From Bacteroides ilei (GTDB lineage: Bacteria > Bacteroidota > Bacteroidia > Bacteroidales > Bacteroidaceae): a stretch of DNA of 64,000 bases. The stretch lies in contig NZ_LT635801.1 of NCBI RefSeq assembly GCF_900128495.1, positions 1,375,997 to 1,439,996 of the forward strand. Direction: 5' to 3'. Positions 21,440-38,765 of this stretch are shown here, in pieces. The notes under the pieces are model-generated. The model did not search any database, was not told the DNA's origin, and saw nothing but the letters and a program-made list of their open reading frames with translations. Each line of letters begins with the position of its first letter. The stretch's first letter is position 1. The translations under genes were made by a program, and so were the position numbers.

Positions 21440-21464
21440 ACATCGTCCAACCTAATTTAGATTT

Positions 21465-22829: not shown

Positions 22830-23482
22830 TAACATTAAAGTATACACAATTATAATAAAAATCATAGAATAAAAAATAATTCGGCTGAATATAAGAGGAA
22901 TAGAGTACCGGCTTAAACAAGGAAGCTGCCGACATAGAAAGACAACCGGAGAAATGACCGTGCAGAATAAAGTCTCCGAAACCTGTTTTACAGGATCGGA
23001 GACTTGTACTGCAAGACAATCCTCTGCCGGGGATTAGCGTTTGCCATGTGTATGTCTGCAAAAATAGTTTTGCAGGGATTGGTAACGGTTCGGAATGACC
23101 GCATTCTCATTGAAACCGTTCAGGCAATGAAGCAATGCTTTTTCGAGCGTGATGTATCGGCGACTGAAAGTCTGTACATTATCCAAGCAACAGGCTTCCA
23201 AAGCGTATTTGAACGGTGCAAGATTTTCAGGTTCTTTCCGAATCCGTACATGCCACAGGAAGAACAACTGAAGCGTGAAACTGTCGGATTTACCTGCTGT
23301 ACCTTTGCATGGAAAAATCCAGCCGGAAGGGAGTATCAGAAACGAGATAAGGGAAAGAATAAGATAAGATACAACAGTGAAATAAAGGGGAAAGCCCGAT
23401 GATATAAAGGATACGGACAACGGCTAAAACAGAAAATTGTCTCGTGGAAACAGATGATATAGAAAGCCCCTCGAATCAACAG
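22830..23482. other. Intergenic stretch with a half copy (J) of the structured element
   Basis: No convincing gene. ORFs on both strands at 23004-23420 have no coding character I trust. At 23281-23345 there is a right arm like those of elements B and C: CTGCTG, TACCTTTG 23300-23307, CATGGAAAAATCCAGCCGG. No matching left arm is found to its left, so this is a remnant, probably cut when the 18.7-22.8 kb cassette or neighbouring DNA arrived. Confidence 0.5.
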
Positions 23483-23525
23483 AACTGCACTCCAAAAGTT
23501 TTTGTCTAACTTTCGGGGTGCAGTT
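23483..23525. terminator. Strong nested hairpin
   Basis: AACTGCACTCC 23483-23493 pairs with GGGGTGCAGTT 23515-23525 (one T-G pair), with a second inner stem AAAGTT 23495-23500 and AACTTT 23508-23513. An outer AGCCCC/GGGGC pair extends it. It separates the ICE sequence from the hexosaminidase gene and could terminate transcription in either direction. Confidence 0.5.
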
Positions 23526-23667
23526 TACTCGGGGCCATGACAAGGCTCTTAATAATAAGGCATTAACTTACTGTTTATAAGCTCATCCTTATGAAATTTG
23601 ACTTTTGAGTTACCCCTTTTATGTAATGATACGGTCGATGGCTTATTCCGGTGATCGTCTGTTAAAT

Positions 23668-24123
23668 TTAGTCGATAGTAATCTCATCAAGGAATAGATA
23701 AGTTCGTTTACCTGCACCCGGATGCCATTTCGGAAGTACCGGAGTGTTTTTTCCGATAATGCGTACATAGCGTGCTTTGGTCTTTCCGAAACTTACCGTA
23801 TCACGTTTCAGTACATTGTTCTTGCTGCCTTTTTCCAGTACCGGTATGGTCTTCGAGGCAATCTTGCTGTATGCGCTTCCGTCGTTAGAACCATATATTT
23901 CCAAACCGGTCAGACCGAAGATATAGTCTCCCGGAACAAGGTATGTGCCGAGTGAGACCGAAGATATTTCTTTCGTTTCCTGCAAGTCGATAATTGCATC
24001 GAAGTTCTGTCCGTAAAGACCGATATAGCGTCCCGAACGATAATTATCGTCACCCTGCAAGCCGTCTACCAGCAAGTTTGCTCCCTGATAGGTATATTTT
24101 TCGTCGGGTTCGCATTTCAGGGG
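23668..24123 (-). pseudogene. GH20 hexosaminidase gene, severed 3' part (F5/8C-type domain)
   Basis: The C-terminal 140 or so codons of the gene whose front half lies at 25278-27150. The sequence LKCEPDEKYTYQGANLLVDG leads into an F5/8 type C (discoidin, carbohydrate-binding) domain: GRYIGLYGQNFDAIIDL... SVSLGTYLVPGDYIFGLTG... VRIIGKN, ending FLFLDEITID-like sequence at TAA 23668-23670. It has been cut off by the IS30 element at 24124-25277 and would not be translated on its own. Confidence 0.8.
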
Positions 24124-25277
24124 CTGAATTCAACTTGCAAATGCAACAGAATTCTGATTAATAATTTGTTTAAATTTTTCGTTTGGCGTGAGGTATCCAA
24201 GTCTTTTACGAGGTCGATTATTGAGTTTATTTTCAATCCACTTAATCTGTTTGTTGGTTACTTCACTAAAGTCCTTACCCTTTGGGATATACTGCCTGAT
24301 AAGCCCGTTGGTGTTTTCATTGGCACCACGTTCCCATGAGTGGTATGGTTTGCAAAAATAGAATTTTATTTCCAATTTTTGCGCAATTTCCTCGTGCTTT
24401 GCAAACTCCTTTCCATTGTCAGCCGTAATTGTGTGTATTAAGTTTTTCACTTTCCGCAGTGCCCATACTGCAATCTTAGCTACCGGGATGGCTTCTTTTC
24501 CCGACAACTTGCGTATCCAGACCCTGCTTGTTGCTCTGTCGTTAATGGTAAGAATGGCACCTTTGTGGTTCTTACCAATAATTGTATCTATCTCTAAATC
24601 ACCAAATCTCTCCTTCAGTTCCACTATCTCGGGACGCTCATCAATATCCACCCTGCCTGGGATAAATCCTCGCCCTGCATTTTTAGAACCACGTTTGGCA
24701 TACCTGCGACCTTGTCTGCGAAGATATTTGTGCAGTTTGCCACCCCGCCGCTTATCCTCCCAAATCCAGCGATATATCGTTTCGTGAGATACCATCGCAA
24801 TTCCCTCCAAGCGGCTCCTGCCGACAATCTGCTCCGGGCTGAATCCTTTCTTCAACAGCTTTATTATCCGTTTTCTCATTGCCGGTGTAAGCACTTCCTT
24901 GCGATGTTTTTGCTGCTTGCGCCTGTCTGCTTTTCGCTGGGCAAGCTCCATGCTATAGCTACCACTTCGGGCGTCGCAATTGCGCTTTATCTCCCTGTAA
25001 ACAGTGCTTTTATCTACTCCGATAGCTTCCGCTATTGCTTTTTTGCTCATCGGTATTTGCAACATCATAGAAATTGCATACCTTTGTTCCTCGGTTATAT
25101 GTTTGCTCATCTGCAACTTTTTTTTCTTTGGACGGACAATTAAAGCAAAGATAGCAAACTTTATCCATTCAGAGTGAGAGAAAGGGGGACATTGTCTCTC
25201 TTTCCTCTCTGAAAAATAAATGTTTTTATTGCTTATTATCCGCACCCAAAAAGTTGCATTTATAAGTTGAACTCAAG
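24124..25277 (-). mobile_element. IS30-family insertion sequence
   Basis: About 1154 bp. Ends are inverted repeats: CTGAATTCAACTTGCAAATG at 24124-24143 on the left, and on the right the reverse complement of TTGAGTTCAACTTATAAATG ending near 25277. A GGG(G) run flanks both ends (24120-24123 and 25277-25280); a 3-bp GGG target duplication restores the hexosaminidase frame (SIT-LKC). The single transposase gene fills the element. Confidence 0.8.
24130..25110 (-). CDS. IS30-family transposase
   Basis: 326 aa from ATG 25110 (MSKHITEEQRYAISMMLQI). An in-frame extension to 25245 is upstream of the usual start. N-terminal helix-turn-helix (KKAIAEAIGVDKSTVYREI), then the DDE core: LEIDTIIGKNHKGAILTI with the first Asp, ITADNGKEFAKHE with the second, and ENTNGLIRQYIPKG with the Glu. 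All three catalytic residues and the frame are intact, so the element should be active. Confidence 0.9.
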   Translation of the reverse strand: MSKHITEEQRYAISMMLQIPMSKKAIAEAIGVDKSTVYREIKRNCDARSGSYSMELAQRKADRRKQQKHRKEVLTPAMRKRIIKLLKKGFSPEQIVGRSRLEGIAMVSHETIYRWIWEDKRRGGKLHKYLRRQGRRYAKRGSKNAGRGFIPGRVDIDERPEIVELKERFGDLEIDTIIGKNHKGAILTINDRATSRVWIRKLSGKEAIPVAKIAVWALRKVKNLIHTITADNGKEFAKHEEIAQKLEIKFYFCKPYHSWERGANENTNGLIRQYIPKGKDFSEVTNKQIKWIENKLNNRPRKRLGYLTPNEKFKQIINQNSVAFAS

Positions 25278-27150
25278 GGGTGATGGAATGCATGGTAGCC
25301 AGATTATACGTCAGAGTTTCTTCGGTTACATTGCTTTCACGCCCGTTGCGGATAGCTCGTGCCTTGATGGTCGTTGTCCGATTTATCATGAATGGTTCCG
25401 TATACCGGAGCGATTCGCTTGTCGGCTCGGAACCGTCCAGTGTGTAGTAGACCGATGCATTGTCGAATGTATTCAGTTCGACAACCGCAATGCCGTCCTG
25501 TCCTTTAGGCTTGACACTTATTGTCACATCCTCTATGTCTTCTTTGTAATGATAGCCGTACAATTCGTATAAATCCATCTGGTGACGGAGGCGTTTCAGA
25601 AATCCGTTCAAGTCCTTCCTTTCCGGATTGCACCACTGCAACTCACTCAGCGCGGCGATACGCGGCATCATCTGCCATTCCATTTTCACGCTGTCCTTTG
25701 TCCATTCCGTCCAGATGCATCCTTGCACTCCGATGATATTCTTCTTTTCTTCCGGGGTCAGCTTCTCCGACTGAGGCTCGAACATATATACGCGTTCTAC
25801 GCTGCTGATGCCTTTCAGGCGGTTATAACCCGGATTGCTGAAATACAGGTGGCTGATTGGGCAGACGATAGTGGAATGTCCCAGTTGTGCGGCTTTGACG
25901 GATGCCTTTATGCCTGTCCATGCCATGACGGTCGTGGTTTCCGGATTAGGATTGCCTTCCAGAATCTCATCCCATGCCAGCATTTTCTTGCCTCGTTTGG
26001 CAATTTCCTTTTCCACTTCGTTCATGAAGTACACCTGAAGCTGGTTCTCCTTGCTGTGTTCTTCAGTGTCGTGCAGTCCCAGTTCCTTAATCTTGGCCTG
26101 ACATTTCGGACATTTCATCCATTCCGCTTTCGGGCATTCATCTCCTCCGATGTGAATATAAGGTGCATCCGGGAATATATCCATCAGTTCGTTTACCACG
26201 TCTTTGGCAAATTGCAGTGTTTGAGGGTTTCCTCCGCAAAGCACTTCCTTGAAAACACCGAATTTTGTAGCCGTTTCATACGGACCGCCTGTACATCCCA
26301 GTTCCGGATAAGAAGCCAGTGCTGCCAACATATGTCCCGGCATGTCTATTTCCGGAATGACCGTAATGAAACGTTCTGCCGCGTATGCTACAATTTCTTT
26401 GGCGTCTTCCTGTGTGTAGTAACCACTGACCGGTGTACCGTCGAATTTCCCGGACCCCGGCGCAGTAATTGTTTCCTTACGGTAAGAGCCGACTTCAGTC
26501 AGTTTTGGATATTTCTTGATTTCAATACGCCAGCCTTGGTCTTCGGTCAGATGCCAGTGGAAGTAGTTGATGTTGTGCAGTGCCATGACATCTATCAGCT
26601 CCTTTAGGTATTCCTTCGGGAAGAAATGACGGCCTACATCTATCATAAAGCCGCGATAGTTGTACTGCGGAAAGTCTTTCACTGTTCCTGCGGGCAGTGA
26701 GGCAAGCGCCTTTCCATCCGTTATGGGGAGTGCCTTGTGTATGGTCTGGCAGCCATAGAAGACACCTGCTTCTGTAGCACCTGTCAAGGTGATGACATCG
26801 ACCGAAACATTCAGTTCGTAGCCTTCTTTGTGTGTAATGGACGGATCGACCTTTAGGATAATACAGTTCTTTCCAGCCTTAGTTCCTATTTTGACTTCCG
26901 TTCCTGTCACTTCCTTGATATAACCTGCAAGCATACGGGCTGTGCCTGCCAGTTTCTCGTTGCCCTCTTCGTAACAAATTGTGGTGGAAGAGTTGATGAC
27001 AAAGGGTGCCGCCGACGGGGTTTCTACAATTTCCTGCGGCAACGGGATGACATTCAGGTTTCCGGTCTGAATGTCTTGTGTTCCACATGCCATCAGACTT
27101 CCTGCGGCTAAAAGGTAAATAGCCCATATTTTTACTGAGTTCTTTTTCAT
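25278..27150 (-). pseudogene. GH20 beta-N-acetylhexosaminidase gene, 5' part, disrupted by IS30
   Basis: The ORF reads 625 codons from ATG 27150 to a stop inside the IS border. Lipoprotein signal with SLMAC (Cys 22). Glyco_hydro_20b domain about 35-150, catalytic GH20 barrel about 155-510 with the DE pair in HIGGDECPK near residue 335, then a chitobiase-type C-terminal module with VYYTLDGSEPTSESLRYTE. It would remove terminal GlcNAc/GalNAc from host or microbial glycans. The catalytic domain is complete, so a truncated protein lacking only the F5/8C module may still be active. Confidence 0.85.
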
Positions 27151-27300
27151 GGTAAAGTCTATTTAATAATTTGTCACAAAAATAACAATTTACGTTTATT
27201 TCATTCTTCAACTTTACATAAATATTAATCCAGTATTAATAATTATGATCTCTGCAGGTGCTTTATTAAGGTAGGACCAATTAAAATCTGGGCAAAATGT

Positions 27301-27544
27301 ATGGATAGGTGGCGGCATTATCTTCTGCCCGGTGTGGAAATCGGTGAAGGTAAGACTATCGGGGATGCACGGGAGAAGACGCATTCACGTTATTTCAGGG
27401 AAAACACCTTCAAGCGCCTGAAAGGCGGCAACAAGGAGCTGCTGATCGTATCCGGCGCACCATACCGACTTGTACTACAACCTAAGCGTGATTCCTTTCG
27501 ACAAGATAGAAACGTTCTTCCGAAAGGCTTTCAATGCGGAATAG
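27301..27544 (+). pseudogene. Gene remnant of unknown family
   Basis: A coding-like tail is split between frames: one frame gives EKTHSRYFRENTFKRLKGGN, and after a one-base shift near 27455 another gives HTDLYYNLSVIPFDKIETFF then RKAFNAE and TAG 27542-27544. The second half reads as a natural protein C-terminus. No start or body is present between here and the GH20 gene, so it is a broken fragment. I do not recognise the family. Confidence 0.4.
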
Positions 27545-27559
27545 CTTGTTAAATAGCTT

Positions 27560-27596
27560 TAATAGCCCATTTGCCTCTCAGGCTTTTGGGCTATTA
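27560..27596. terminator. Bidirectional terminator hairpin
   Basis: TAATAGCCCA 27560-27569 pairs perfectly with TGGGCTATTA 27587-27596. It lies between the convergent remnant (+) and the 27599 ORF (-), with T-rich sequence on both sides. Confidence 0.7.
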
Positions 27597-27598
27597 TT

Positions 27599-28237
27599 CT
27601 ATTTCATACGGTACTGCCAAAGGAAGACGAGCAATAAGGTCGTTATTTCAGTAAGCGGCATGGAAAGCCAGATTCCCTTTACTCCCAGCCATCCGGGAAG
27701 CAGGAGGAAGGCAGGAACGAGCAATCCCAGTCCGTGTAAAAACACCAATGCTGTATAGCTTATTTCAACCTTGAACTGCTCCGAGTACAGACGGGTATTG
27801 AAGTAACCCGTGGCCAACATGCCTTGCTCGGCGAAACGCACGGCTTCCTCCTTGTATTTTTTCATGGCAGATGCCACAGAGATTTCATCACGGTTATCCC
27901 CTACAAACGATGCAGACAGGACTCTGTTTCTGTAACACAGTTTGAATGTTCCGATTTCCTCCTGCACCACGGGCAGGTCGATAGCCTCGTATTCCTCTTT
28001 CGTGACCGTGACGAATTGCGTATGCTCTTGGTCGAGATAGAGGCGGAAAGCGGGTTTTACCCGCTCCCGCTTCTCTTCATATTCCGCCTGTTCCCGCGCA
28101 CTCATACAGTTATATACGTGTCGGGAAACTCTCCGCACCGCATTGACAAAAGTCTGACTTTTGCATACTCCGAGATGTCGGGCAAAGTCGGGCACTGTCC
28201 CGATGAAACCGTACTCTTTCCAATGATAGGTTTTCAT
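27599..28237 (-). CDS. Chimeric ORF: ICE hypothetical protein fused to a MATE transporter tail
   Basis: 212 aa from ATG 28237 (MKTYHWKEYGFIGTVPDFAR). The first 160 residues are a soluble ICE-type protein (DFARHLGVCKSQTFVNAVRR has helix-turn-helix character). From about residue 165 the sequence changes to hydrophobic ALVFLHGLGLLVPAFLLLPG, GVKGIWLSMPLTEITTLLLV, which is the final helices of a MATE-family multidrug exporter. A deletion or recombination has fused the two reading frames. It starts 13 nt after the 28251 stop and belongs to the element-C operon. The natural end of the first protein is lost. Confidence 0.6.
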   Translation of the reverse strand: MKTYHWKEYGFIGTVPDFARHLGVCKSQTFVNAVRRVSRHVYNCMSAREQAEYEEKRERVKPAFRLYLDQEHTQFVTVTKEEYEAIDLPVVQEEIGTFKLCYRNRVLSASFVGDNRDEISVASAMKKYKEEAVRFAEQGMLATGYFNTRLYSEQFKVEISYTALVFLHGLGLLVPAFLLLPGWLGVKGIWLSMPLTEITTLLLVFLWQYRMK

Positions 28238-28250
28238 GTCGTCTCGAATT

Positions 28251-28832
28251 TTATTCCACAATTTCGTACTTGACCACGCTGCAATAAACCTGCTCATTTT
28301 TTTCCTTCCATTGCTCCATGATACGCTCCACATCCGTTTCGGAGGTTACGGGTTGCCCGAAGATTTCTTCCAGCCACTCGAACATGGCTTCCCGATTGGT
28401 AAAGTATTCGCTATAATACTCATCTTCGAGAGTATATACCTCGGCACGGAACTTGTCTGGGAAATATCTGCTTTCGCTGTCATTGGTCTCGTAAATGCCC
28501 ATGCCCGGCTCTTCCGTCTGGTAATAGTAACGGAGCGACGGGAATTTCTCGCATACGAGGTCGAGTGTCTCATTGCACGGTCCCCATGCCGTCTCTGTCG
28601 TAAAGCGGAGGGTTTCGTCCTCTATTTCGAGGTTCGCCCAGTCTCCCCGACAGCTCACCTTGTTCCAGTCTTCGCCCAAGGCATCCACGAGGCAGCCCAG
28701 CCACGATGTACCGAAGCCGTTTTCTACGGACGGCTCTTTCCGTTCCTGCAAATTTTTCATCAACTCGTAAAGTTTTTTGATTTCCTGTGCGTCGCCTTCG
28801 ATGGCATACGCTGTACTGCACCAGTTTGGCAT
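28251..28832 (-). CDS. YubB/DUF1281-like ferredoxin-fold protein
   Basis: 193 aa. The N-terminus MPNWCSTAYAIEGDAQEIKK is the signature of the DUF1281/YubB-like group (MPNW/HxxN start), and the sequence keeps the aromatic, acidic pattern (WGPCNETLDLVCEKFPSL, YYQTEEPGMGIYETND). YubB is encoded in the leading region of F-type plasmids, the first DNA to enter a recipient. A second member is at 49614-50303. It lies directly downstream of element C. Confidence 0.7.
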   Translation of the reverse strand: MPNWCSTAYAIEGDAQEIKKLYELMKNLQERKEPSVENGFGTSWLGCLVDALGEDWNKVSCRGDWANLEIEDETLRFTTETAWGPCNETLDLVCEKFPSLRYYYQTEEPGMGIYETNDSESRYFPDKFRAEVYTLEDEYYSEYFTNREAMFEWLEEIFGQPVTSETDVERIMEQWKEKNEQVYCSVVKYEIVE

Positions 28833-28901
28833 AATCGTAATTTTTTATTGGTTCGTTAAATATTGTTTTTCTTTTCCCTCCTCTCGGAAGCCTTTCGGCT
28901 T

Positions 28902-29139
28902 TCCTTGTCGGGAGAGATTTTACATGCAGGTCAGACAGCGGGGAAAGGACGGGAAGGCAAGCAAACAGCCGGGGATTTCACGGAATACCCAACCCGACAG
29001 GCAAAGCATGGCGGGGGACTGAAAGGACATCTCTGATTTGGGAAGGCTTCCGGGCAATCCACGAGCCGTTAGCACGGCGGTGCTTGATGCCGGACGACCG
29101 CTGTACCTTTGCATAGGAAAATCCAACCGACAAGGGAGT
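28902..29139 (-). promoter_or_regulatory. Element C: long imperfect hairpin with embedded promoter motif (candidate ssDNA promoter)
   Basis: Close relative of element B. GTCGG 28907-28911 pairs with CCGAC 29127-29131; in B the same position is GCCGG with CCGGC, so a base pair has changed on both sides (compensatory change). AGATTTT, CATGCA and CAGCGG blocks pair as in B. TACCTTTG is at 29104-29111, with a TTG 17 nt upstream. The motif faces right, while the gene it precedes (28251) reads left. Confidence 0.75.
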
Positions 29140-29265
29140 GCTGACGAAAAGAGAAGAGGAAAGAAATAACGGAAAGATATTAAAACAGGTGTAAAATAAG
29201 ATGTTATATCTACAATTACGCACAAAATCCTTTCATTTCGAACCATCATGCCTTATTTATATCAG

Positions 29266-29287
29266 ACGGGAGCAATGTCGCTCCCGT
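29266..29287 (+). promoter_or_regulatory. Hairpin/operator ahead of the serine recombinase
   Basis: ACGGGAGC 29266-29273 pairs perfectly with GCTCCCGT 29280-29287, 15 nt before the recombinase ATG. No T-run follows; it may be an operator or a translation-control hairpin. Confidence 0.45.
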
Positions 29288-29302
29288 AAAATAATTAAGG
29301 AT

Positions 29303-29962
29303 ATGATAATAGGTTATTTAAGGGTCAGTACGGGCAAACAGAACCCGGCTAATCAACAAGATGAAATCCGGCGTTTCGCCGACAGTAGAAATCTTTCCAT
29401 TAACCAGTGGGTAACGGAGGTCGCCAGCGGCAAAAAGAAGGGGTGCGACCGTAAATTAGGGGGGCTGATACGGCGCATGAAACATGGCGATACGCTGATT
29501 GTAACGGAAGTGTCGCGTCTAAGCCGCACGCTGACGGACCTCATGGCCATCATGGGCAAATGTCTGGAGAAAGGAATCAACCTTTACACCACCAAAGAGG
29601 GGTATTCGTTCGACAACTCCATCAATAGCAAGGTACTCTGTTTCGCTTTCGGGCTGGTGGCGGAGATTGAGCGCAACCTGATTTCGATGCGCACCAAGGA
29701 GGCGCTTGCCTTGCGGAAAGCCGAGGGTGTCGTTCTCGGCAGGAAAAAAGGCAGTTACACGAAAATGAACGTGTTGATTGAAAACCGGAAGGTCGTCGTC
29801 GGCATGTTGAAGCAAGACTGTACGATTACCGATATATGCAGGCGTTTCGACATCTCGCGGGATACGTTCTTGAAATTCCGCAGCCGCTATAAGGAAATAG
29901 ACAAGGCCATGAAAGAAAAAGAGACAAGACGGAAAGGAAAGTCGCAAAAACGGACGGTATGA
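29303..29962 (+). CDS. Serine recombinase (DNA invertase)
   Basis: 219 aa from ATG 29303 (MIIGYLRVSTGKQNPANQQ), ten nt after AAGG. Resolvase/invertase catalytic domain with the nucleophilic Ser in RVST (residue 9), the Arg pair in VSRLSR, and ERNLISMRTKEAL on the long helix; C-terminal helix-turn-helix ITDICRRFDISRDTFLKFR. It matches small Bacteroides DNA invertases of the Mpi type. It lies immediately upstream of a 139-bp segment with inverted ends (29969-30139) and a fimbrial operon, so it probably inverts that promoter. Confidence 0.85.
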   Translation: MIIGYLRVSTGKQNPANQQDEIRRFADSRNLSINQWVTEVASGKKKGCDRKLGGLIRRMKHGDTLIVTEVSRLSRTLTDLMAIMGKCLEKGINLYTTKEGYSFDNSINSKVLCFAFGLVAEIERNLISMRTKEALALRKAEGVVLGRKKGSYTKMNVLIENRKVVVGMLKQDCTITDICRRFDISRDTFLKFRSRYKEIDKAMKEKETRRKGKSQKRTV

Positions 29963-29968
29963 TTTTAC

Positions 29969-30139
29969 GTTGGTTTAATCGTTCGTTTTCAGCCACAAAG
30001 CTACAAAAATAGAAATTATCCACAAAGAAAATCTGCAAGAATTTGCGTTTCAACTCTTTGAGCAGGACAAATTTTCCCGGAGTGTCCGAATAATACGACC
30101 TTTTTTCCGATAGCTTTTTTAATGAACGATTTAACCAAC
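29969..30139. promoter_or_regulatory. Invertible promoter segment of the fimbrial operon (present orientation off)
   Basis: Left repeat GTTGGTTTAATCGTTC 29969-29984; right repeat GAACGATTTAACCAAC 30124-30139. They are inverse copies with one central mismatch and enclose 139 bp. Inside, the minus strand has TATTTTTG (30011 down to 30004), a perfect TAnnTTTG box facing left, away from the fimbrial genes. After inversion it would lie at about 30097-30104 facing right, starting transcripts near 30111 towards 30281. Confidence 0.75.
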
Positions 30140-30187
30140 AAATAAACCGGCACAACTGACAGTTATCCGGCTGATTATTTGTTGGTT
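30133..30187 (+). repeat. Perfect 13-bp inverted repeat overlapping the right recombination site
   Basis: AACCAACAAATAA 30133-30145 pairs with TTATTTGTTGGTT 30175-30187; CCGG at both inner ends extends it. It reuses the AACCAAC half of the right inversion site, so it gives a third copy of the half-site and forms a leader hairpin in any transcript entering the operon. Confidence 0.65.
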
Positions 30188-30280
30188 TGGTGCTTTTTAT
30201 CCTTTTAAAGGGGAAGAACGGCACGGATAAACGTACAGGGAATTGAATAAATAGCTGATATAAATTGGCATAGACGGAAT

Positions 30281-31574
30281 ATGACAATGAAACGAATACT
30301 ATTATTATTTCTTTTATTCTGTGGCGGGTATGTTTATGCGCAGGAGCTGGACTCGGCTTTTATTCTGTGGCGGGTATGTTCATGCGCAGGAGCTGGACTC
30401 GGCCCGTATCCATTACCGGCAGGGGCACAGGAACGTGGACGTGCTCTTCCGGGACAACCGCACGGAATTGGAGCGTTTTATCCGCATTCTGCGCGAAGAA
30501 CACGGGACGGGGCGTCTCGAAAACGTCGTGATACGCTCGTGGGCATCACCCGACGGTGCGAACCGTCTTAACGAGGTGCTGTCGAAGCGCAGGGCCGACT
30601 CCCTGAAAGCTTATCTCGTGCGCCATGCCGGAATCCCCGACAGTATCGTCAGTATGCATGGCGAAGGTATCGCGTGGGACATGTTGCGCCGGATGGTCGC
30701 TGCCTCAGATATGCTTTATAAAAAAGAGGTACTGCACATCCTCGATCACACGCCGGTATGGGTGTTCGATGAATCCGGACGCGTGGTGGACGGACGAAAG
30801 AAACAGCTCATGGAGCTGCGCGGCGGACGGCCTTACGTGTACATGCAGGAGAACTTCTTCCCGGATTTGCGTTCCAGTCTCTCGGTGGCCTGCTACCGGA
30901 AATCGGAATCGCCCGTGACTATTTCCCGAAAAGAGGCGGAAGTGAAAGAGCCGGAACCGGCCCTGCAACCCGATAGCGTGGCGGAAACGACCTCCGAGCC
31001 AGCAACGGTGCGGCAGGAAGCGACCGTGCAACCGCAAAGACCGACGGTGCAGCGGCTGGCCGTCAAGACCAACCTGCTCTACGACGCGATACTGATGCCC
31101 TCGCTCGAAGTCGAATACCGCATTGCCGACCGCTGGACGGTGAACCTCGAAGGCGAGATAGCGTGGTGGAAGAACGATGGCAGGCACAAGTATTACCAAG
31201 TGGCCACGATCAGCCCGGAGGGACGCTGGTGGTTCGGGCAGAAGCAAGGCAACCCGTGGCACGGCCACTACCTCGGCGTGTTCGGGGGCTTCACGTGGTA
31301 CGACCTCGAAAACGGCAAGGAGGGCTATCAGGGCGAGGCCGAAATGGTGGGTGTCAGCTACGGCTACATGTTCCCCATCGGACGGCGGTTCTCCTTAGAG
31401 GCCGGTATCGGGGTGGGCTACATGCACAGCAAGTACGAGGAATACCTTCCCATCGACGGACACTACGTGTACCAGCAGACAAACCGGATGAACTACTTCG
31501 GCCCGTTGAAACTGAAGTTTGCCCTCGTGTGGCGGTTGTGGGATACCGGTAAAAAGAAAGGAGGCGCACGATGA
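30281..31574 (+). CDS. OmpA-like/DUF3575 outer-membrane protein, frame broken by a 46-bp duplication
   Basis: The start MTMKRILLLFLLFCGGYVYA is a good signal peptide, but a 46-bp tandem duplication (30312-30403) shifts the frame and the ATG product ends after 96 codons. The downstream frame (open from a GTG at 30321) encodes an OmpA-like module (VVIRSWASPDGANRLNEVLS... RRADSLKAYL), a Pro/Glu linker, then a DUF3575 beta-barrel (VKTNLLYDAILMPSLEVEYR... GVSYGYMFPIG). Removing one repeat restores a protein of about 415 aa. Genes of this type often lead Bacteroidales fimbrial operons. Confidence 0.75.
30312..30403 (+). repeat. Tandem 46-bp direct repeat in the signal-peptide region
   Basis: Unit 1 is 30312-30357 and unit 2 is 30358-30403; they differ at one base (GTTTATG and GTTCATG). 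46 is not a multiple of three, so copy number decides whether the start codon is in frame with the body: one copy on, two copies off. Confidence 0.9.
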
Positions 31575-32599
31575 AAACAACGCTACGATATACCCTCATG
31601 GGACTCACGCTCGCCGGATTGACATTCCTTTCCACGAGCTGCCGGAAGGACCTGTGTTACGATCATGACGAACATGGCTTGTCCGTGAAGGTGAATCTCT
31701 CTTCCGACTGGGAACAGGAATGGGAACGTGCTTATACCTATGACTGGGAAGAATTGTGGGAAGAGGACTGGAAGCATGACTATGACGATTTGCGCCCTGC
31801 TCCGGCCGACGGAATACGCGTCCAAGTCTATACCAGCGACGGACAACGTATGGAGAGCAACCTGCCCGATGAAGGAGGACGGGTTGCCATGCCGGAAGGC
31901 ACGCACGAGCTGCTGTTCTACAACAATGATACGGAATATATCGTGTTCGACGGTGTGGCCGCCTCGGAATCCGCCACTGCCACCACACGAGGCGTGACCC
32001 GGAGTTCTTACCGGGAACTGCACGCGGGGGAACGTACCGTGAACCAGCCCGACATGCTTTACGGGGCATACATGGAAGAATACACGGCGGAAAAGACACT
32101 TGTCCCGACGGAGCTGCCGGTTACCTTGCGTCCGTTGGTTTACACCTATATGATACGCTACGAGTTCGAAAGCGGACAACAATACGTGGCCTTGGCACGC
32201 GGAGCCTTGGCGGGCATGGCCGAAACGGTCTACCTGAACGACGGGCATACCGGGGAAAACGCGGCCACGGTACTGTTCGACTGTACACTGGAAGATTATG
32301 GAGCGGAAGCTCTGGTACAGTCGTTCGGCGTGCCCGACTACCCGGGAGAACATTACGGGCGAGGCGATACGGACGGGCGGCGGTACAGCCTGAACTTGGA
32401 GGTGAGAATGGTGAACGGCAAGTTCAAGACCTTCGAGTTCGATGTCACCGACCAAGTAAAAGGTCAACCACGGGGCGGCGTTATCGTCGTGAGCGGGCTG
32501 TCGATTTCCGATGACGAGGGTCTGGAAGGCGGAGGCAGCTTTGACGTGGATGTGGACGGCTGGGGAGAATGGGTGGACATACCGCTGCCCCTCGACTGA
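31571..32599 (+). CDS. DUF5119-type fimbrial lipoprotein
   Basis: 342 aa. Lipoprotein signal MKTTLRYTLMGLTLAGLTFL with lipobox STSC (Cys about 24). The start overlaps the DUF3575 stop by 4 nt (ATGA). The sequence after the lipobox, RKDLCYDHDEHGLSVKVNL, and the DWEQEWERAYTYDWEELWEE stretch are typical of DUF5119 (FimB/Mfa-like anchor) proteins. By family knowledge it is likely to be an anchor or assembly subunit of the type V pilus. It also carries a TTRGVTRSS stretch like the pilin cleavage sites. Confidence 0.75.
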   Translation: MKTTLRYTLMGLTLAGLTFLSTSCRKDLCYDHDEHGLSVKVNLSSDWEQEWERAYTYDWEELWEEDWKHDYDDLRPAPADGIRVQVYTSDGQRMESNLPDEGGRVAMPEGTHELLFYNNDTEYIVFDGVAASESATATTRGVTRSSYRELHAGERTVNQPDMLYGAYMEEYTAEKTLVPTELPVTLRPLVYTYMIRYEFESGQQYVALARGALAGMAETVYLNDGHTGENAATVLFDCTLEDYGAEALVQSFGVPDYPGEHYGRGDTDGRRYSLNLEVRMVNGKFKTFEFDVTDQVKGQPRGGVIVVSGLSISDDEGLEGGGSFDVDVDGWGEWVDIPLPLD

Positions 32600-32655
32600 A
32601 ACGAATAAAATAACAGGTACTGGAATAACCATTTTTAATTTAATTTTTACATCTT

Positions 32656-33684
32656 ATGAAGAAAAGTTTTTTGATGCTTGGCGTGGCTGTAGCAGCACTG
32701 GCAAGCTGTTCGAATGAAGAAGTCGTGGATATGCCGCAGAGCCGGGCAATCCAGTTCGAGACTTTCGTGAACCATTCAACGAGAAGTAGTGTGACCGAAA
32801 CAACGGAAGAAAATCTTAACAAGTTCTTCGTTTTCGGAAACTATGGAGAGGGCACGTGGACTCCCGTGTATACCAATGTCGAGGTAACAGGAGGAAATGT
32901 GGGAGATCAATCAGGTTGGAATCCTGTACAGACCGCTTATTGGCAATCGGGCGAGAAGTATCGTTTCGGAGCTTATTCTGATGGGAATAGCAAAATCGAG
33001 AACGAGAACGTGGATTTCATCGAGGGTGAGCAGAAACTGACGTTCACAGATTACACGGCAAACAATGCCAAAGACCTGATCGTGGCCATACCCGATGAAA
33101 AGACCGCACAAGCTTCTGATAATACTCCGGTAGGCTTATCTTTCTACCACATGCTGTCTCAGGTGAAGTTCACCTTCACGAACACGGACTCCCATGACTA
33201 CATCATGAAAATCGAAAACATCAAGGTGAACGCGGTACAAACCGCTACGGGTACAGCGACTTATAAGGTGGAGAAACCGACTATCGCTTGGGAGACTGCA
33301 AGTGTCCCAAAGGCGGACTATGATTTCGAAACAATAGAGGATATTGCGGAGCCGGTGAAAGACGATTCTCACTCGACGACCTGCTTCGTCATTCCGCAAG
33401 ACAACACAGAGTTGTCGGTTAGCTTTACCGCGATATTCTCTGATAAATCAGGGAAAATAGCAGAAAATAATTTCACCGGAAAGTTGAACTATCAAGGAGA
33501 TAAAGAAGGTACAGAAAAAGGCAAATGGACTCCGGGCTTCAGGTACAACTATACGGTTGAAATCAACGGCAGCAAGATTGACCCGGATTTGAAACAACAG
33601 GTAATTGAGTTCAAGGTCGATGCTGTGGAAGACTGGACAGACGTGGACCAAACTCCAGTAACTCCGAATGAGGTCGGAGAATGA
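32656..33684 (+). CDS. Fimbrillin-family protein, probable major subunit
   Basis: 342 aa. Lipoprotein signal with ALASC (Cys 18). After it, RAIQFETFVNHSTRSSVTE has Arg at 43, the expected site for Arg-specific processing that frees the strand for polymerisation in type V pili. Mature sequence has the FNKFFVFGNYGEG-like and VGLSFYHMLSQVKFTF features of fimbrillins and is richer in Lys/Asn than its neighbours. Followed by a strong hairpin (33720-33743), which would raise the dose of this subunit relative to the minor ones. Assignment as major subunit is inference. Confidence 0.8.
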   Translation: MKKSFLMLGVAVAALASCSNEEVVDMPQSRAIQFETFVNHSTRSSVTETTEENLNKFFVFGNYGEGTWTPVYTNVEVTGGNVGDQSGWNPVQTAYWQSGEKYRFGAYSDGNSKIENENVDFIEGEQKLTFTDYTANNAKDLIVAIPDEKTAQASDNTPVGLSFYHMLSQVKFTFTNTDSHDYIMKIENIKVNAVQTATGTATYKVEKPTIAWETASVPKADYDFETIEDIAEPVKDDSHSTTCFVIPQDNTELSVSFTAIFSDKSGKIAENNFTGKLNYQGDKEGTEKGKWTPGFRYNYTVEINGSKIDPDLKQQVIEFKVDAVEDWTDVDQTPVTPNEVGE

Positions 33685-33719
33685 TTGCTTGCAAATAGCT
33701 AAAGACATCACATCAGGTT

Positions 33720-33743
33720 ATGAGGGGTTGAATGTCCCCTCAT
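33720..33743 (+). terminator. Intercistronic hairpin
   Basis: ATGAGGGG 33720-33727 pairs perfectly with CCCCTCAT 33736-33743. No T-run follows, so it is more likely an mRNA-stabilising or partial-termination hairpin between the first and second fimbrillin genes. Confidence 0.5.
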
Positions 33744-33821
33744 GGCCACTAACGGGAGTATCACTCCTTAATTTTACGCTGCCGGTAGCATCAGAAATGA
33801 CCGGATATAAAGAAACAATGT

Positions 33822-34790
33822 ATGATTATGAATAACAACCTATTCAAGACCTTGTTCATACCGGCTGTAGCCTGCCTGCTGGGAGCCTGTACGGAAAGCA
33901 CGGGTCCGGACATGGAGGCAGGCGATGACAGTCTGGCGATCCGTTTCGCCGGTCCTGCCGTGACACGAGCCGCCATCGACGACGCAGACGACATGCAGAC
34001 CGACGGGAACTCGTTCAGCGTTTGGGGCAGCTATACCGCCGTGACGGGCGGTACGGCCACGAGCGTGTTTGACGCCGAGAAGGTGACATGCCTTTCCGGC
34101 ATGTGGGGTTACGAGGGCACGAGATACTGGCTCCCCGGTAACACCTACGACTTCTACGCCCTCTACCCATCCGCGGAGACGCTGGGCGATGCCGTGTCCT
34201 CTGTCGCCTGCACGGACGGCACTTTTACCGTCAACGGCTTCGACGCCACGAAAGGGTACGACCTGATGACGGCGAAAAAGACGGGTATTTCCGTCGTGGC
34301 AGGCCAGACTCCCGGTGCGGTAGCCCTCAAATTCCAACATCTGCTGGCACGCCTCACCTTCGTGGCACGCAGCGAGGGAGGCAACGCCACGGTACGTTCC
34401 ATCTCCCTTGAGGGGCTGGCTGTCAAGGGCGACTACGACGACAACGCAGAAACTGCGTGGAACAACACGACAACGGGGAAGGTCAGCGTGAAGAAAGAGA
34501 CCAACGTAACCCCTGCCGGAAACGCGAACGTGTCGGGCGACCTGCTGCTCATTCCGCAATCGCTTGCGGGCGGGGTGAAGCTGACCGTCATCTACGACAC
34601 CGATGCCGAGACAGAAAAGTCCGCTTCCTACACCTTGCCTGCCACCACCGTGAGCATGTGGGAGGCGGCGAACCATTACCGTTACTCGTTCACCCTCACC
34701 GGCGGAGGCTACATCGTGTTCGACCCGCCCACGGTCAACGCATGGAGCGACGCCATAGGCGGGAACGTAACCATCGACGTGACCCAATAA
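33822..34790 (+). CDS. Fimbrillin-family protein, minor subunit
   Basis: 322 aa. Lipoprotein signal with LLGAC (Cys 23). The mature N-terminus SLAIRFAGPAVTRAAIDDAD keeps the TR[A/S] cleavage motif with Arg at 49. Body has fimbrillin features (YWLPGNTYDFYALYPSAE, ALKFQHLLARLTFVARSEG) and ends WSDAIGGNVTIDVTQ, a typical C-terminal donor strand. Higher GC than the first fimbrillin. Confidence 0.8.
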   Translation: MIMNNNLFKTLFIPAVACLLGACTESTGPDMEAGDDSLAIRFAGPAVTRAAIDDADDMQTDGNSFSVWGSYTAVTGGTATSVFDAEKVTCLSGMWGYEGTRYWLPGNTYDFYALYPSAETLGDAVSSVACTDGTFTVNGFDATKGYDLMTAKKTGISVVAGQTPGAVALKFQHLLARLTFVARSEGGNATVRSISLEGLAVKGDYDDNAETAWNNTTTGKVSVKKETNVTPAGNANVSGDLLLIPQSLAGGVKLTVIYDTDAETEKSASYTLPATTVSMWEAANHYRYSFTLTGGGYIVFDPPTVNAWSDAIGGNVTIDVTQ

Positions 34791-34824
34791 CCTTATTATA
34801 AGCTATCTGTAACCTGACGATAAA

Positions 34825-35976
34825 ATGAACATCCAAATGAAGCAACGATACATACTTCCGGCCCTCCTGCTCCTCTGCGCCGCCTGCCAGCAGGAGGAAT
34901 GGGCGCAGCCCGAAGCCGACAGTTCCGACGCCATCCGCTTTGCCGCCCCGACCATTACCGTGGAGGAACTCACCCGGAGCACGTTCCACGACGCATTTCC
35001 TACCGGCGGCACATTCGGTGTATTGGGCTACTGCGTGCCCTACCAGCGCGGTAGCGACACCGAAATGGACTGGGCATCGGGCAGCGCGAACTGGGGCAAC
35101 AAGAGCGGCAACGCCTTCCCCGACGTGTTCTTCAATCAAGCCGTCACCTACAACGGCTCGGCCTGCACTTATGACTATAATAACAGTGGCGGCCCACGAA
35201 AATGGTACAACACGACGCAGAATCAGGAGGCGATCTCCCCCGACAACTACCGGTACACCTTCTTCGCCTATTACCCGATGGACGATTTTACAGTGGAAAG
35301 TCCTACCAATGCCACCACACGGGGCGTGCCGAAACTGACGTTCACCATGCCGTTCGCCGAGACGGGCGATGTAGCGACTACCACGTTGGACGACAAGGAG
35401 ACGCCCGACGCGATGGTCTCCGTCGTCTATAACCACCTGCGCACCACGGGAAACGTGCGCTTCAATTTCAGCCATATCATGACGGGCTTGGGCTTCGCCG
35501 TGAACAACTACAATTACGGGGGAGATGATGAAACTGTTACCGTCAAGCGCGTTACCTTGTCGGGCAACTTCACTCGCTCGATTACCATAGATTTCAGCAA
35601 GAACACCAACGAAGACGGATTCTACACCTACAGCGGCACCTATCCCGGCACATACGTGATATATAACAACGAGGAAGGGTTTGCAATAGCTCCCAACAGT
35701 TCCGTCCCCCTGATAGGCGACAAACACCTGCTTCTGTTGAGCAACGCCACGGACGGCACTTATTTCGGCGAGAACGTGAAGGTCCATGTCGAATACACCT
35801 ACAGGGGGGAAGCAAAGAACGCCTCTGCCGAACGTCCGACGCAGTTCCAGCCCCGTGCGGGCGTCCGCTATACGGCGCAGCTTAACTTCGTGGGCGAAAC
35901 CTTCGCGCTGAACTTCATCGCCGCCGAGGACGAGTTCTGGGAAGACGGGGGCGACAGCGACGTCTCAATCCAATAA
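34825..35976 (+). CDS. Fimbrillin-family protein, minor subunit
   Basis: 383 aa. Lipoprotein signal with LLCAAC (Cys 21). IRFAAPTITVEELTRSTFHD has Arg at 51 in the same TR[S/A] context. Body has FGVLGYCVPYQRG, YTFFAYYPMDDF and VRFNFSHIMTGLGFAV; ends WEDGGDSDVSIQ. Third of four pilin-like subunits; probably a shaft or adaptor subunit. Confidence 0.8.
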   Translation: MNIQMKQRYILPALLLLCAACQQEEWAQPEADSSDAIRFAAPTITVEELTRSTFHDAFPTGGTFGVLGYCVPYQRGSDTEMDWASGSANWGNKSGNAFPDVFFNQAVTYNGSACTYDYNNSGGPRKWYNTTQNQEAISPDNYRYTFFAYYPMDDFTVESPTNATTRGVPKLTFTMPFAETGDVATTTLDDKETPDAMVSVVYNHLRTTGNVRFNFSHIMTGLGFAVNNYNYGGDDETVTVKRVTLSGNFTRSITIDFSKNTNEDGFYTYSGTYPGTYVIYNNEEGFAIAPNSSVPLIGDKHLLLLSNATDGTYFGENVKVHVEYTYRGEAKNASAERPTQFQPRAGVRYTAQLNFVGETFALNFIAAEDEFWEDGGDSDVSIQ

Positions 35977-36001
35977 AGCAACAACTGAAAACAGCATAAA
36001 G

Positions 36002-38374
36002 ATGAAAAAGATATTTTATTACTTCCTGCCGGTGGCCGCCATGCTTTTGCCGACAGCCTGCACCACGGAGGAGGACTTTGGCGGCGGTACCGTTCCGCCC
36101 GGCGACGGATTCACCATCGAGGCCGTCTGCCAAAACATGCTGCCGCAACAAGTCGTCACCCGCTCGGCCATCGCCAAGGACGACAAGGAGAAGCGTATCA
36201 ACCAGCTCTACCTGTTCTTCTTCGACGAAAACGACGACTATCTGCAATCGAGCAACACGAAAGTATTCTCGCCGTATATGGCTCCGTCGGCGAATACGAG
36301 CAATGTCAGCATTCCTACGGACGTGTTTGTAGATCAAACGCTCGCCCAAAAAACCACCATCTACGCCTTGGCCAACGTGACTCCGGAAGTGGTAGCCGAT
36401 GCCGACGGTGACGGTTATCCCGACAACTTCCCCCAAGGGGGCAAAGACGGGAAAACTCCCAAGGAGCTGCTCGAAGCGTTCGTGTACGACCCTGCCAATT
36501 ACACCCCTGATACCCACGATGCCATCACGACCCTGCCCAGCACGGGAATGCCGATGGCAGGCAAAAGCGCGACTACCGTGGACCTCACCAAGAAGGGAAG
36601 CCTCACGATGCAACTCAAGGCACTGATGGCCCGTATCGACATCAACATCAGTATCGATTCCGACCACTCGGACGAGAGCGGACAACTGCCCCGTCTCTCC
36701 ATTGCGGAATGGGGCGTGTACAACATGCCTACCGCCGTGCCCCTGACAGAGCCTGCCGATGGCCAGACCAAGCTGAATACCGATGAACCATACCGCAATG
36801 TAGAAAACATACCGAGCGATGCCGTCGTTTACAACCACGGCGGGGCCGCCTCCCTTACCTTCTACATGTTCGAGAACATGATTGCCCCGGACGAAGATCC
36901 GGAGAGCTATAAGTATCCGGCCGGAGTGGTAGACGATGTTGACAAACAGCGATGGAAGCCGAAGTTAGTGAATGAAAACAGCAAGGCCACCTATTTCAAG
37001 ATGAGAGCCTACTACACCACCTATAACGGCGACCCCTCCCTGCCTGCAGGACAGGATAACACCACCATCGAGGCCGAATACACCTTCTATCTCGGAGGTG
37101 ACCCGGTGAAGGACTTCAAGGTGATACGCAACAGGCACTATGCCAATAACATCGTCATCAGCGGGCTGACCCATGTGGGTAACAACCCGGACCACATCAC
37201 CTTCGATGCCCGTGTCAACATCACCGAGCAGAACAACCCGTTCTACCTGTCCATGCTGCGCGAACGCGAGCACGATGCCCACTACTGTGTCACGCCTTTG
37301 GACGTGTACCTTTTCAAGAAGGAGGCAAATCCGCAGATGACCGTCAGCATAGCCGACCCGGAAAGTCACACTTGGATACGCATGGAACGTGTGCCCGCCG
37401 AAAATATGGAGTATGGAACACTCTCTGACGACATGAGTGCAGATACCCATTTGGCGACCGGACAGGCATGGACTGCGGGAAACGGCAAACGCAAATACTT
37501 CACCACGGACTTGGTGACCAAAACCCTTGCGAATAATACCGAATATACCATTAAGACGAACCGTGACCGTATTTATTTCTACTTGGACGAAAACCTAAGC
37601 ACGAAAGACCGCACCGCCACCGTAAACATCTCGTACACCGACGACAAGACGCAAACGCCACGCATCCGTACCATTGAAATCGTACAGCACGGTCTGTTGC
37701 CGGTAACCGTGCCGGGAGACGACGACAATCCCACGCAGCAAATCTATGTAGAAGCCTACGAAGAGTATATTTCCCATTACGACCCCCTGAACGAGTTTGA
37801 AGGGAATTATATCTATGACGGATTGGAATGGGGGTTGAATGGAGAATACTTGGGTTGGAATTTGGTCATACAAGGAAAAGATGAAACTTGGTGCAATATC
37901 TATTACAACGGGGCTGAAGCTACCCAGCATATTATTTCGAAAGCAGGACAATCAACAATGAACCTGAACGAAAAGCCCCGTTCTGCTGCGGAGTATTGCT
38001 ACAACAAGAACAAGCGCAATGACAACGGAGTCGTACAGGGCATGACCAATTCTTCCGGTTGGTTCTTGCCCGGCATTCGCCAATTAGAGGCCATACTAAC
38101 CTCCTATTACAATACATATCCGGAGTTTCAAAACAATTTTTATTGGTCATCGGCGGCGGGGAAAAGACGGGTTGGTATTTGGCCATATGATTACTATGAG
38201 GACAACAGTTATGCCCGTGCCACCAAGGCCCTGCCAGACGGTGGTTATGCAGAAAGTGACTGGGACGATACGTACACGAGTGAGAACGGCACCACCGGCA
38301 AAGCCCCCCGTACCGGCACCTACCTCCGCATCCGTGCGGCCTATGTACCGCCCAGCGGCGTTACCATCGAATGA
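36002..38374 (+). CDS. Large fimbrial protein (DUF4906-like), probable tip subunit
   Basis: 790 aa. Lipoprotein signal with LPTAC (Cys 20). QVVTRSAIAKD gives the processing Arg at 54. N-terminal half is fimbrillin-like (INQLYLFFFDENDDY, TTIYALANVTPEV). The long C-terminal region has an adhesin-like segment with PRSAAEYCYNKNKRNDNGV, SSGWFLPGIRQLEAILTSYY and WSSAAGKRR. Size, position last in the operon and the extra domain fit a tip adhesin. Strong terminators follow. Confidence 0.75.
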   Translation: MKKIFYYFLPVAAMLLPTACTTEEDFGGGTVPPGDGFTIEAVCQNMLPQQVVTRSAIAKDDKEKRINQLYLFFFDENDDYLQSSNTKVFSPYMAPSANTSNVSIPTDVFVDQTLAQKTTIYALANVTPEVVADADGDGYPDNFPQGGKDGKTPKELLEAFVYDPANYTPDTHDAITTLPSTGMPMAGKSATTVDLTKKGSLTMQLKALMARIDINISIDSDHSDESGQLPRLSIAEWGVYNMPTAVPLTEPADGQTKLNTDEPYRNVENIPSDAVVYNHGGAASLTFYMFENMIAPDEDPESYKYPAGVVDDVDKQRWKPKLVNENSKATYFKMRAYYTTYNGDPSLPAGQDNTTIEAEYTFYLGGDPVKDFKVIRNRHYANNIVISGLTHVGNNPDHITFDARVNITEQNNPFYLSMLREREHDAHYCVTPLDVYLFKKEANPQMTVSIADPESHTWIRMERVPAENMEYGTLSDDMSADTHLATGQAWTAGNGKRKYFTTDLVTKTLANNTEYTIKTNRDRIYFYLDENLSTKDRTATVNISYTDDKTQTPRIRTIEIVQHGLLPVTVPGDDDNPTQQIYVEAYEEYISHYDPLNEFEGNYIYDGLEWGLNGEYLGWNLVIQGKDETWCNIYYNGAEATQHIISKAGQSTMNLNEKPRSAAEYCYNKNKRNDNGVVQGMTNSSGWFLPGIRQLEAILTSYYNTYPEFQNNFYWSSAAGKRRVGIWPYDYYEDNSYARATKALPDGGYAESDWDDTYTSENGTTGKAPRTGTYLRIRAAYVPPSGVTIE

Positions 38375-38405
38375 CAACCGCCGGCTTTAAGGCCGACTTT
38401 ACTCG

Positions 38406-38453
38406 CTGCCCGTCTGTAGGAAACCCCTTTACAGGCGGGCAGTGCTGTTTTTA
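38406..38453 (+). terminator. Terminator of the fimbrial operon
   Basis: CTGCCCGTCTGTA 38406-38418 pairs with TACAGGCGGGCAG 38430-38442 (one mismatch), followed by GCTGTTTTTATT at 38444-38455. Confidence 0.8.
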
Positions 38454-38581
38454 TTCCCCCGGTATGTCTTTGGCCTGTACAACCGACATGCACACGCACG
38501 TTTTATACGTCGGTCGGGATAGAAAAAGGTGTGACAATATCGAAAGAACCTATTCAACAAAAAGAGGTTTGCAGCCACCCC

Positions 38582-38627: not shown

Positions 38628-38765
38628 CTTCTATCAGCGAAACGGTAATAGACATTTGGGTACGCGTTATCCGATTGTGTCGTCCGCGAAACACCATCGG
38701 CGCCGGAACTTTATCTGTCATCCGATAGAAATACGATAATAAATGTAGGATTTCTTTACCGCTTT

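Follow-up and report, generated by a model that had tools for sequence, protein, structure and literature searches.

A probable phase-variation cassette on an integrative and conjugative element of Bacteroides ilei: an invertible promoter, sequenced in the OFF orientation, ahead of a type V pilus operon

This analysis concerns a 64,000-nt stretch of the Bacteroides ilei genome, hereafter the window (RefSeq assembly GCF_900128495.1, contig NZ_LT635801.1, positions 1,375,997 to 1,439,996 of the forward strand). Near its middle, a serine recombinase gene is followed by two short inverted repeats that enclose a promoter-like sequence, and these are followed in turn by a pilus operon. The whole arrangement lies in an integrative and conjugative element (ICE). 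An initial annotation of the stretch had proposed a phase-variable fimbrial operon with its invertible promoter caught in the off orientation. The locus is read here as a self-contained, ICE-borne phase-variation cassette in which an invertible promoter stands ahead of a type V pilus operon and is OFF as sequenced, a reading to which we assign a probability of about 0.92. The features of the switch are as follows.

29303..29962, plus strand: serine recombinase (invertase) gene, Mpi-like, 219 aa, recognised by Pfam, NCBIfam and PDB alignments
29968..29987, plus strand: left recombination site, with outer core CGTT at 29968-29971 and inner core CGTT at 29980-29983
29985..30123, no strand: putative invertible segment in the OFF orientation, lying the same way round in all six ICE copies found
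29996..30026, minus strand: predicted Bacteroides-type promoter TTTG-N19-TAGCTTTG, firing leftwards, from box and spacing, shuffles and ICE relatives
30004..30011, minus strand: TATTTTTG box, the choice of the initial annotation, which reads TGTTTTTG in ICE copies L060, L061 and L062
30121..30139, minus strand: right recombination site, with inner core AACG at 30125-30128 and outer core AAC at 30137-30139
30133..30187, plus strand: predicted leader hairpin with 13-nt perfect arms, its 5' arm overlapping the right site, from a repeat search and RNA folding

The recombinase matches the Pfam Resolvase family (PF00239, 119 bits, above the cut-off), and four helix-turn-helix models match its residues 160-210 with E < 0.001, all under their own cut-offs. 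In other words, the protein combines a Resolvase domain with a C-terminal helix-turn-helix, as Mpi-family invertases do. It aligns to PDB chains of gamma-delta resolvase and DNA-invertase, with which it has an RVST stretch in common. Mpi sites contain ACGTTCGT. A search of the genome of this strain for relatives of the recombinase at E <= 0.001 matched only the recombinase itself. A genome scan for its sites, allowing up to three mismatches, returned the two arms at this locus and one lone site on another contig, with no second pair, and divergent sites would escape such a scan. A promoter-like TTG-N17-TACCTTTG at 29084-29111 on the plus strand, ~190 bp 5' of the gene, is a candidate promoter for the recombinase. 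Directly 5' of the gene also lies one member of an ICE repeat pair of ~310 bp (17127-17435 and 28863-29168, 86% identical as measured against the Bacteroides ndongoniae copy of the element).

The left repeat starts six bases past the end of the recombinase gene (29962). The two repeats form 19-nt arms (29969-29987 and 30121-30139) that are separated by 133 nt and match at 17/19 bases, including a 16-bp core with one mismatch. When the intergenic region 29963-30280 was shuffled with its dinucleotides preserved and the best 19-nt pair 60-260 nt apart was scored, none of 200 shuffles reached 17/19 (the maximum of 16 occurred once). The initial annotation, which described a serine invertase gene followed by inverted repeats at this place, was right on both counts. 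The 12 bp at 29968-29979 (CGTTGGTTTAAT in the window) will be referred to as the 12-bp unit.

Within the segment, two TAnnTTTG boxes adjoin on the minus strand, TATTTTTG at 30004-30011 and TAGCTTTG at 29996-30003, the latter 8 bp nearer to the left repeat. The initial annotation had picked TATTTTTG, and this box is indeed present and faces away from the pilus genes. However, it appears that the conserved promoter is the neighbouring TAGCTTTG box, which has TTTG exactly 19 nt upstream. The promoter is conserved in ICE relatives at 88-91% identity, and L060-L062 keep the box as TAATTTTG with identical spacing. Of 2000 dinucleotide shuffles of the segment, read on either strand, 2 contained TTTG-N19-TAnnTTTG, 42 contained the looser TTG-N17-22-TAnnTTTG and 323 contained at least one TAnnTTTG box. 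A box alone is thus weak evidence because it is common in shuffles, whereas the spaced pair is not weak. The -7 box consensus of Bacteroides promoters is given as TANNTTTGY in the cited passage of PMC12632263. The promoter at 29996-30026 is aimed away from the pilus genes and runs antisense to the 3' end of the recombinase gene. Since it faces away from an operon starting at 30281, the state as sequenced is OFF. The promoter is presumably active.

Past the right site, the predicted RNA fold of 30133-30200 has an energy of -18.9 kcal/mol (z -2.7). The arms of the hairpin are identical in the six aligned ICE copies; the variant base in the unit of the right site does differ but falls outside the arm. 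A T run begins ~10 nt past the leader stem, and the modelled hairpin may be a plain terminator. Refolding of the leader by a second 12-bp unit was considered and found to be unsupported; the predicted main hairpin stays the same whether the leader has one unit or two.

The downstream operon consists of seven ORFs (30281/30321-38739), where the initial annotation had counted six fimbrial genes.

30281..31574, plus strand: first operon gene, DUF3575/OmpA-like, with a broken frame; the downstream frame, an ORF from 30321, is intact
31571..32599, plus strand: DUF5119 gene (Pfam)
32656..33684, plus strand: fimbrillin-like (Mfa_like_1) gene (Pfam)
33822..34790, plus strand: fimbrillin-like (Mfa_like_1) gene (Pfam)
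34825..35976, plus strand: fimbrillin-like (Mfa_like_1) gene (Pfam)
36002..38374, plus strand: large gene, DUF4906-like (below the Pfam cut-off), candidate tip protein, with homologues in the same place in L067, L068, L069 and L087
38371..38739, plus strand: small ORF overlapping the end of the DUF4906-like gene, no family match

Three consecutive Mfa_like_1 proteins above the cut-off on one strand identify a type V (FimA/Mfa) pilus operon. The first gene is shifted out of frame by a 46-bp tandem duplication (~30312-30403, 45/46 identical). As a result, the frame from 30281 stops after 96 codons, and an overlapping frame from 30321 covers the remainder. The duplication occurs in this strain only and is absent from the five other aligned ICE copies (L059-L062, L173). 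It could be an assembly error, a loss or a second kind of off-switch. By eye, the overlapping frame downstream of the duplication starts with a signal-peptide-like stretch.

The switch and the operon lie on a mobile element that extends beyond the window.

1..55959, no strand: part of the ICE inside the window; the whole element occupies 1312731-1431955 of the genome's own contig C1 (119 kb)
42008..43525, minus strand: MobV relaxase gene of the ICE (NF041497, 176.2 bits against a cut-off of 100)

In window coordinates the element runs from -63265 to 55959, with its left end 63 kb before the window. The same 119-kb element is present in B. ndongoniae (G149, switch locus L059) at another chromosomal site and with different flanks on both sides. 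By kinship label, the genome analysed here falls in the genus of Phocaeicola coprocola. The two copies are 99.97-99.99% identical and their ends carry TTGACAATAAAT / ATTTATTGTCAA. Sharp ends, together with different hosts at different sites, mark the element as an ICE. Further evidence comes from a CTnDOT-like set of transfer genes that includes a tyrosine integrase at the left end, the relaxase, a coupling protein (above the cut-off by Pfam, with MobC-like below it) and TraK, TraM and TraN above NCBIfam cut-offs, with TraJ-like matching weakly. ParA, ParB, PcfJ and PcfK are also encoded. No VirB4-type ATPase was recognised among the ICE proteins scanned, which were part of the element's proteins. 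Large parts of the ICE are shared, at 79-93%, by B. propionicigenes (G245), B. cutis (G290) and P. coprocola (G261), where they end at window positions 55951-55959, and a sixth copy of the switch was found in genome G820 (L173). Judging by these comparisons, the ICE has moved between gut bacteria recently. The claim of the initial annotation that switch and pilus are ICE cargo is thereby confirmed as to their location, in this 119-kb element.

Evidence that the segment inverts comes from differences among near-identical ICE copies, which were searched for in one genome per species (family 399, order 393, genus 61, genus g3 158). Compared with the window-type arrangement, L059 and L061 have a left repeat without 12 bp and a right repeat with 12 bp more. 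In L059 the missing sequence is the unit at 29968-29979, and the extra 12 bp align at 30125 in the right site. Relative to the window, L059 has gained on the right the reverse complement of the 12 bp that it lost on the left, down to a variant base. In L061 the reciprocity is exact against L062 and one base off against L060. The total of two units is kept in all six copies. Since the gained right unit of L059 bears the variant base of the left site, the unit came from the left, and slippage at the right site was not its source. Slippage or duplication as the origin of the 12-bp differences was ruled out for L059 on the basis of this variant base and the conserved unit total.

These differences stand out against an element that is otherwise nearly unchanged. 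Over 119 kb, the copies of this genome and of B. ndongoniae differ by the 46-bp duplication, one single base within it, four single bases in the left part and a 12-bp gap in each switch site, a count that excludes changes within a few bases of the element ends. Between B. propionicigenes (G245) and P. coprocola (G261) there are 4 differences in 41,415 bp, 2 of which are the 12-bp switch gaps. G245 and B. cutis (G290) differ at 3 places over 64,570 bp, of which one lies in the right repeat and another is a one-base gap at the alignment end. If events fell evenly and independently, the chance of that many in the 190-bp switch would be 1.3e-4 (G245/G261), 9e-3 (G245/G290) and 7e-5 (this genome/G149, 8 events). 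Both gaps of a hop arise together, so these figures flatter the case, and more weight rests on the gaps being exactly reciprocal.

The footprints were also compared with simulated inversions. With CGTT cores, 12 states are reachable from the window, and one of them, two inversions away, is the exact sequence of L059. On this path one of the two exchanges is out of register, and the state after one inversion is ON. With cut points left unrestricted in both site regions, 75 solutions were obtained; the only variation among them concerns which of the repeated letters is cut and which exchange comes first. CGTT as the sole exchange core was rejected; it joins the window and L059 but not L061 and L062, whereas GTT cores join both pairs, L061 and L062 then being two inversions apart. 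Serine invertases exchange strands at two bases, which the GTT-core result fits. On these comparisons the switch appears to be live, since the pattern of differences at the flip sites of the ICE copies is the one expected from past flips. The T/A base at the eighth repeat position varies among near-identical copies (L060, L062, L173), and A at both sites is unexplained by inversion alone.

The switch was also compared with its relatives at other loci. Searches of viral contigs, by two DNA patterns and by protein, found no copy of the switch. Among plasmids no copy was found by DNA, and by protein the recombinase relatives among the best 5000 records were all < 60% identical. A protein search of species-level genome contigs was followed up for the best 80 of 103 recombinase relatives. 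In 16 of these best 80 of 103, the recombinase gene is followed on its own strand, at no more than 1.5 kb, by a DUF3575 gene; ICE copies account for four of the 16, and some matches are weak (21-35% identity). The six larger pilus genes are all present, and ordered as in the window, in L067, L068, L069 and L087; in L097 the same genes lie on the other side of the recombinase. Fifteen segments between repeats with CGTT-type cores (the window, L060 and 13 distant loci; lengths 102-150) were delimited by hand. Automated repeat selection overlooked the sites in several loci (e.g. L059, L061, L069, L071), and the 15 loci are not a blind sample. Outside the 15 are L080, L081, L088, L092, L175 and L176, despite a promoter match facing away from a pilus-type gene, as well as L106 and L119, where repeats are present but the pattern gives no promoter pair. 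L174 is L083 again and L177 is L079 again, and L034-L039 and L178 enter no count.

When the 15 segments are oriented by the TAnnTTTG box, 10 are OFF, 3 are ON (L068, L069, L085) and 2 have no box. In the boxed segments the box starts 6 to 17 bases from the segment's outer end, most often 11. The ON segments of L068 and L069 lead into pilus operons, and that of L085, which has a second box in the opposite direction, leads into DUF6562 proteins. By its promoter box, the segment 29985-30123 is inverted with respect to these three loci; for the other OFF segments the inversion against the three is seen by alignment. When all pairs were aligned, 34/105 exceeded z 3.5 in at least one orientation, and 32 of these fit a division of the ON set (L068, L069, L085) from the rest. 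Of the 14 pairs flagged as inverted, 13 join L068, L069 or L085 to another locus, and 19 pairs agree within classes; the pair L068-L097 is ambiguous. With borders set by eye and single-letter shuffles, the split is good but not blind evidence. Both orientations exist at the family level only, and within the ICE the ON state would be an intermediate. Together, the ICE footprints and the two orientations in other Bacteroidales support the proposal of the initial annotation that this is an invertible promoter in its OFF orientation.

The recombination sites of the relatives show a periodicity that matches the 12-bp unit. In 30 site sequences from the 15 loci, identity at lag 12 was 0.402 against 0.284 in shuffles (z 7.9, or z 6.3 without the window and L059). 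Lag 12 was the highest of 16 lags, although lags 8 and 13 also gave z > 3; the sequences are related to one another and the shuffles were simple ones. On one side, L069, L071, L075, L082 and L097 show tandem cores 12 bp apart, which were not seen in L067, L079, L083 and L135. From the lag-12 signal and the tandem cores, sites with two cores seem widespread in the family, and out-of-register exchange with them. In L088 (~10930-10960), three tandem cores spaced by 12 bp lie on the right side. L097, L105 and L135 are divergent, with the switch between the recombinase and an opposite-strand DUF3575 or pilus gene.

Several observations weigh against reading the locus as a phase-variation cassette. 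An ON copy of the same ICE was sought, and none of the six copies found is ON; all are OFF. One part of the refuting condition in the initial annotation, that no strain ever shows the other orientation, would be fulfilled by these six copies, but three distant loci are ON and the footprint requires an ON intermediate. In the simulation, the ICE copies of G245 (L060) and G820 (L173), with variant A at both sites, have no inversion-only link to any other copy. Because the first operon gene is disrupted in this strain, a switch in the ON state might still fail to produce a working pilus. The likeness of the recombinase to Mpi stands insofar as the Mpi equivalog NF009949 is its best NCBIfam match. 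The score of 248.3 bits does not reach the cut-off of 272, however, and no second site pair was found in the genome at up to three mismatches. Among the related segments, L071 and L082 have no promoter box, the box of L068 has no TTG at the expected distance, and the pair L075-L105 contradicts the ON/OFF split.

Could the ICE copies differ without any inversion? The inverted repeats might be a static structure such as a terminator or a pair of operators, with the differences produced by slippage of replication at short repeats. Such a view would agree with the uniform orientation of the segment in all six copies, and the 46-bp tandem duplication, ~170 bp off, shows that slippage-type events occur nearby. 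It is nevertheless extremely unlikely in the face of the reverse-complementary loss and gain in L059, variant base included, and the reciprocity of L061, which holds against L062 and is one base off against L060. The constant total of two units in 6/6 copies, the letter-for-letter reproduction of L059 by two inversions and the inverted homologous segments at other loci argue in the same direction.

It is also very improbable that the inversion is performed by another, host-encoded recombinase and that the adjacent gene has a different role. Master invertases of B. fragilis do reach distant sites (Mpi acts on 13 regions, according to the cited passage of PMC4747536). However, the genome of this strain has no other recombinase relative at E <= 0.001 and no other close site pair, and the switch varies between ICE copies in different host species. 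Furthermore, relatives of the recombinase adjoin such segments in distant loci, many beside a DUF3575 or pilus gene. The adjacent recombinase is presumably the enzyme that flips the segment. Invertible regions can mislead assemblers, and most of these genomes are multi-contig drafts. The moved 12-bp unit might for that reason be an assembly chimera, made by misjoining short reads of a mixed ON/OFF culture, for which we see only a slim chance. Joined ends of different states would not conserve the unit total, yet two units are found in 6/6 copies. Moreover, even a chimera requires moved units, and hence inversion, in the population.

The invertible-promoter cassette would operate as follows. 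The recombinase would pair the two inverted sites, cut and rejoin them at cores that contain GTT (CGTT and the outer GTT) and so flip the segment. In the OFF orientation the promoter would fire left across the left site and transcribe the 3' end of the recombinase gene in antisense. In the ON orientation transcription would start just inside the right site and proceed through a short leader with the conserved hairpin into the type V pilus operon, and the pilus would be made only in this state. Because the cores are 12 bp apart in each site, the exchange could occur in or out of register. An out-of-register exchange would move a 12-bp unit to the other site, so that the leader would hold two repeat units instead of one. 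Depending on where the 12-bp unit lies, either orientation thus occurs in at least two versions.

A more elaborate model is tentative, and we hold it to be rather unlikely. In this model there would be at least four states (ON or OFF, each with the unit in the left or the right site). Once ON, the operon would be expressed to a degree set by the number of repeats between promoter and genes, beside a hairpin that shares their sequence. Out-of-register exchange would be built into the recombinase family, and the OFF antisense transcript would damp the recombinase and hold the OFF state. The prediction of the hairpin in the one-unit and the two-unit leader alike counts against this model. Antisense damping is doubtful as a general rule because in L097, L105 and L135 the OFF-facing promoter is aimed toward the recombinase in the sense direction. 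On the other hand, at the B. fragilis invertible region IVp-I, more repeats were associated with less transcription in a study cited by PMC4747536 (cited passage), so a graded ON state is conceivable here by analogy.

Three other observations concern the ICE beyond the switch. A hybrid two-component sensor frame (Reg_prop, HisKA; 55910-58858, minus strand) terminates inside the ICE, so that the last codons of the sensor are supplied by the ICE end. A group II intron protein (reverse transcriptase, maturase) is encoded at 9408-11255; because 8881-11380 is missing from the aligned parts of the G290 and G245 copies, the intron was probably inserted later. A second ICE repeat pair, of ~345 bp, lies at 53285-53629 and 55167-55509 (91% identical, measured against the B. 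ndongoniae copy).

The cassette resembles several known systems and differs from each of them. As the cited parts of PMC4747536 and PMC12632263 describe them, the Mpi promoters of the B. fragilis capsule loci likewise combine a serine invertase, a TAnnTTTG promoter between short inverted repeats and a surface structure encoded downstream. In contrast to the Mpi system, the recombinase here is below the equivalog cut-off, no second site pair was found, the switch is ICE-borne and a pilus operon lies downstream. At IVp-I, which precedes an exopolysaccharide (EPS) operon of B. fragilis, the number of repeats between promoter and genes also varies, from one to two or three (PMC4747536, cited passage). 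In B. fragilis strains, duplicated repeats occur at one or both ends of an invertible region (PMC3090145, cited passage), and this region is taken to be that of IVp-I. IVp-I differs in having a tyrosine recombinase (Tsr19/BF2766) and a polysaccharide operon, whereas the locus described here has a serine recombinase, a 12-bp unit and a pilus operon.

IP-ARG classes 1-3 likewise place an invertase and an invertible promoter within Bacteroidales ICEs, but their promoters drive resistance and glycan-synthesis genes, rather than a type V pilus operon (PMC8748976, cited parts). A phase-variable Bacteroides locus with a fimbria-like protein is known (PMC12632263), and fimbrillin genes are enriched near invertons (PMC11892184); a serine-recombinase ICE cassette with moving repeat units is not described in the cited passages of these two papers. 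The conjugative megaplasmid pMMCAT of gut Bacteroidales is likewise mobile and has a fimbriae locus, but it is a plasmid (PMC8102008, cited passage). Among the matches listed, no open-licence description of a serine-invertase pilus switch on an ICE, or of moving repeat units in one, was recognised by title or abstract.

The finding suggests that a mobile element can bring an adhesion organ together with the switch that hides it. A single transfer would then be enough to give a recipient a bet-hedging surface trait. Near-identical ICE copies across species also act as a natural recorder that marks where strands are exchanged. With the remainder of the element nearly constant, it can be read from the switch sites that they recombine faster than they mutate. 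The moving 12-bp unit provides a sequence-level test of in-register versus out-of-register exchange by a serine invertase, and it may bear on the repeat-number variation of the tyrosine-recombinase switch of B. fragilis.

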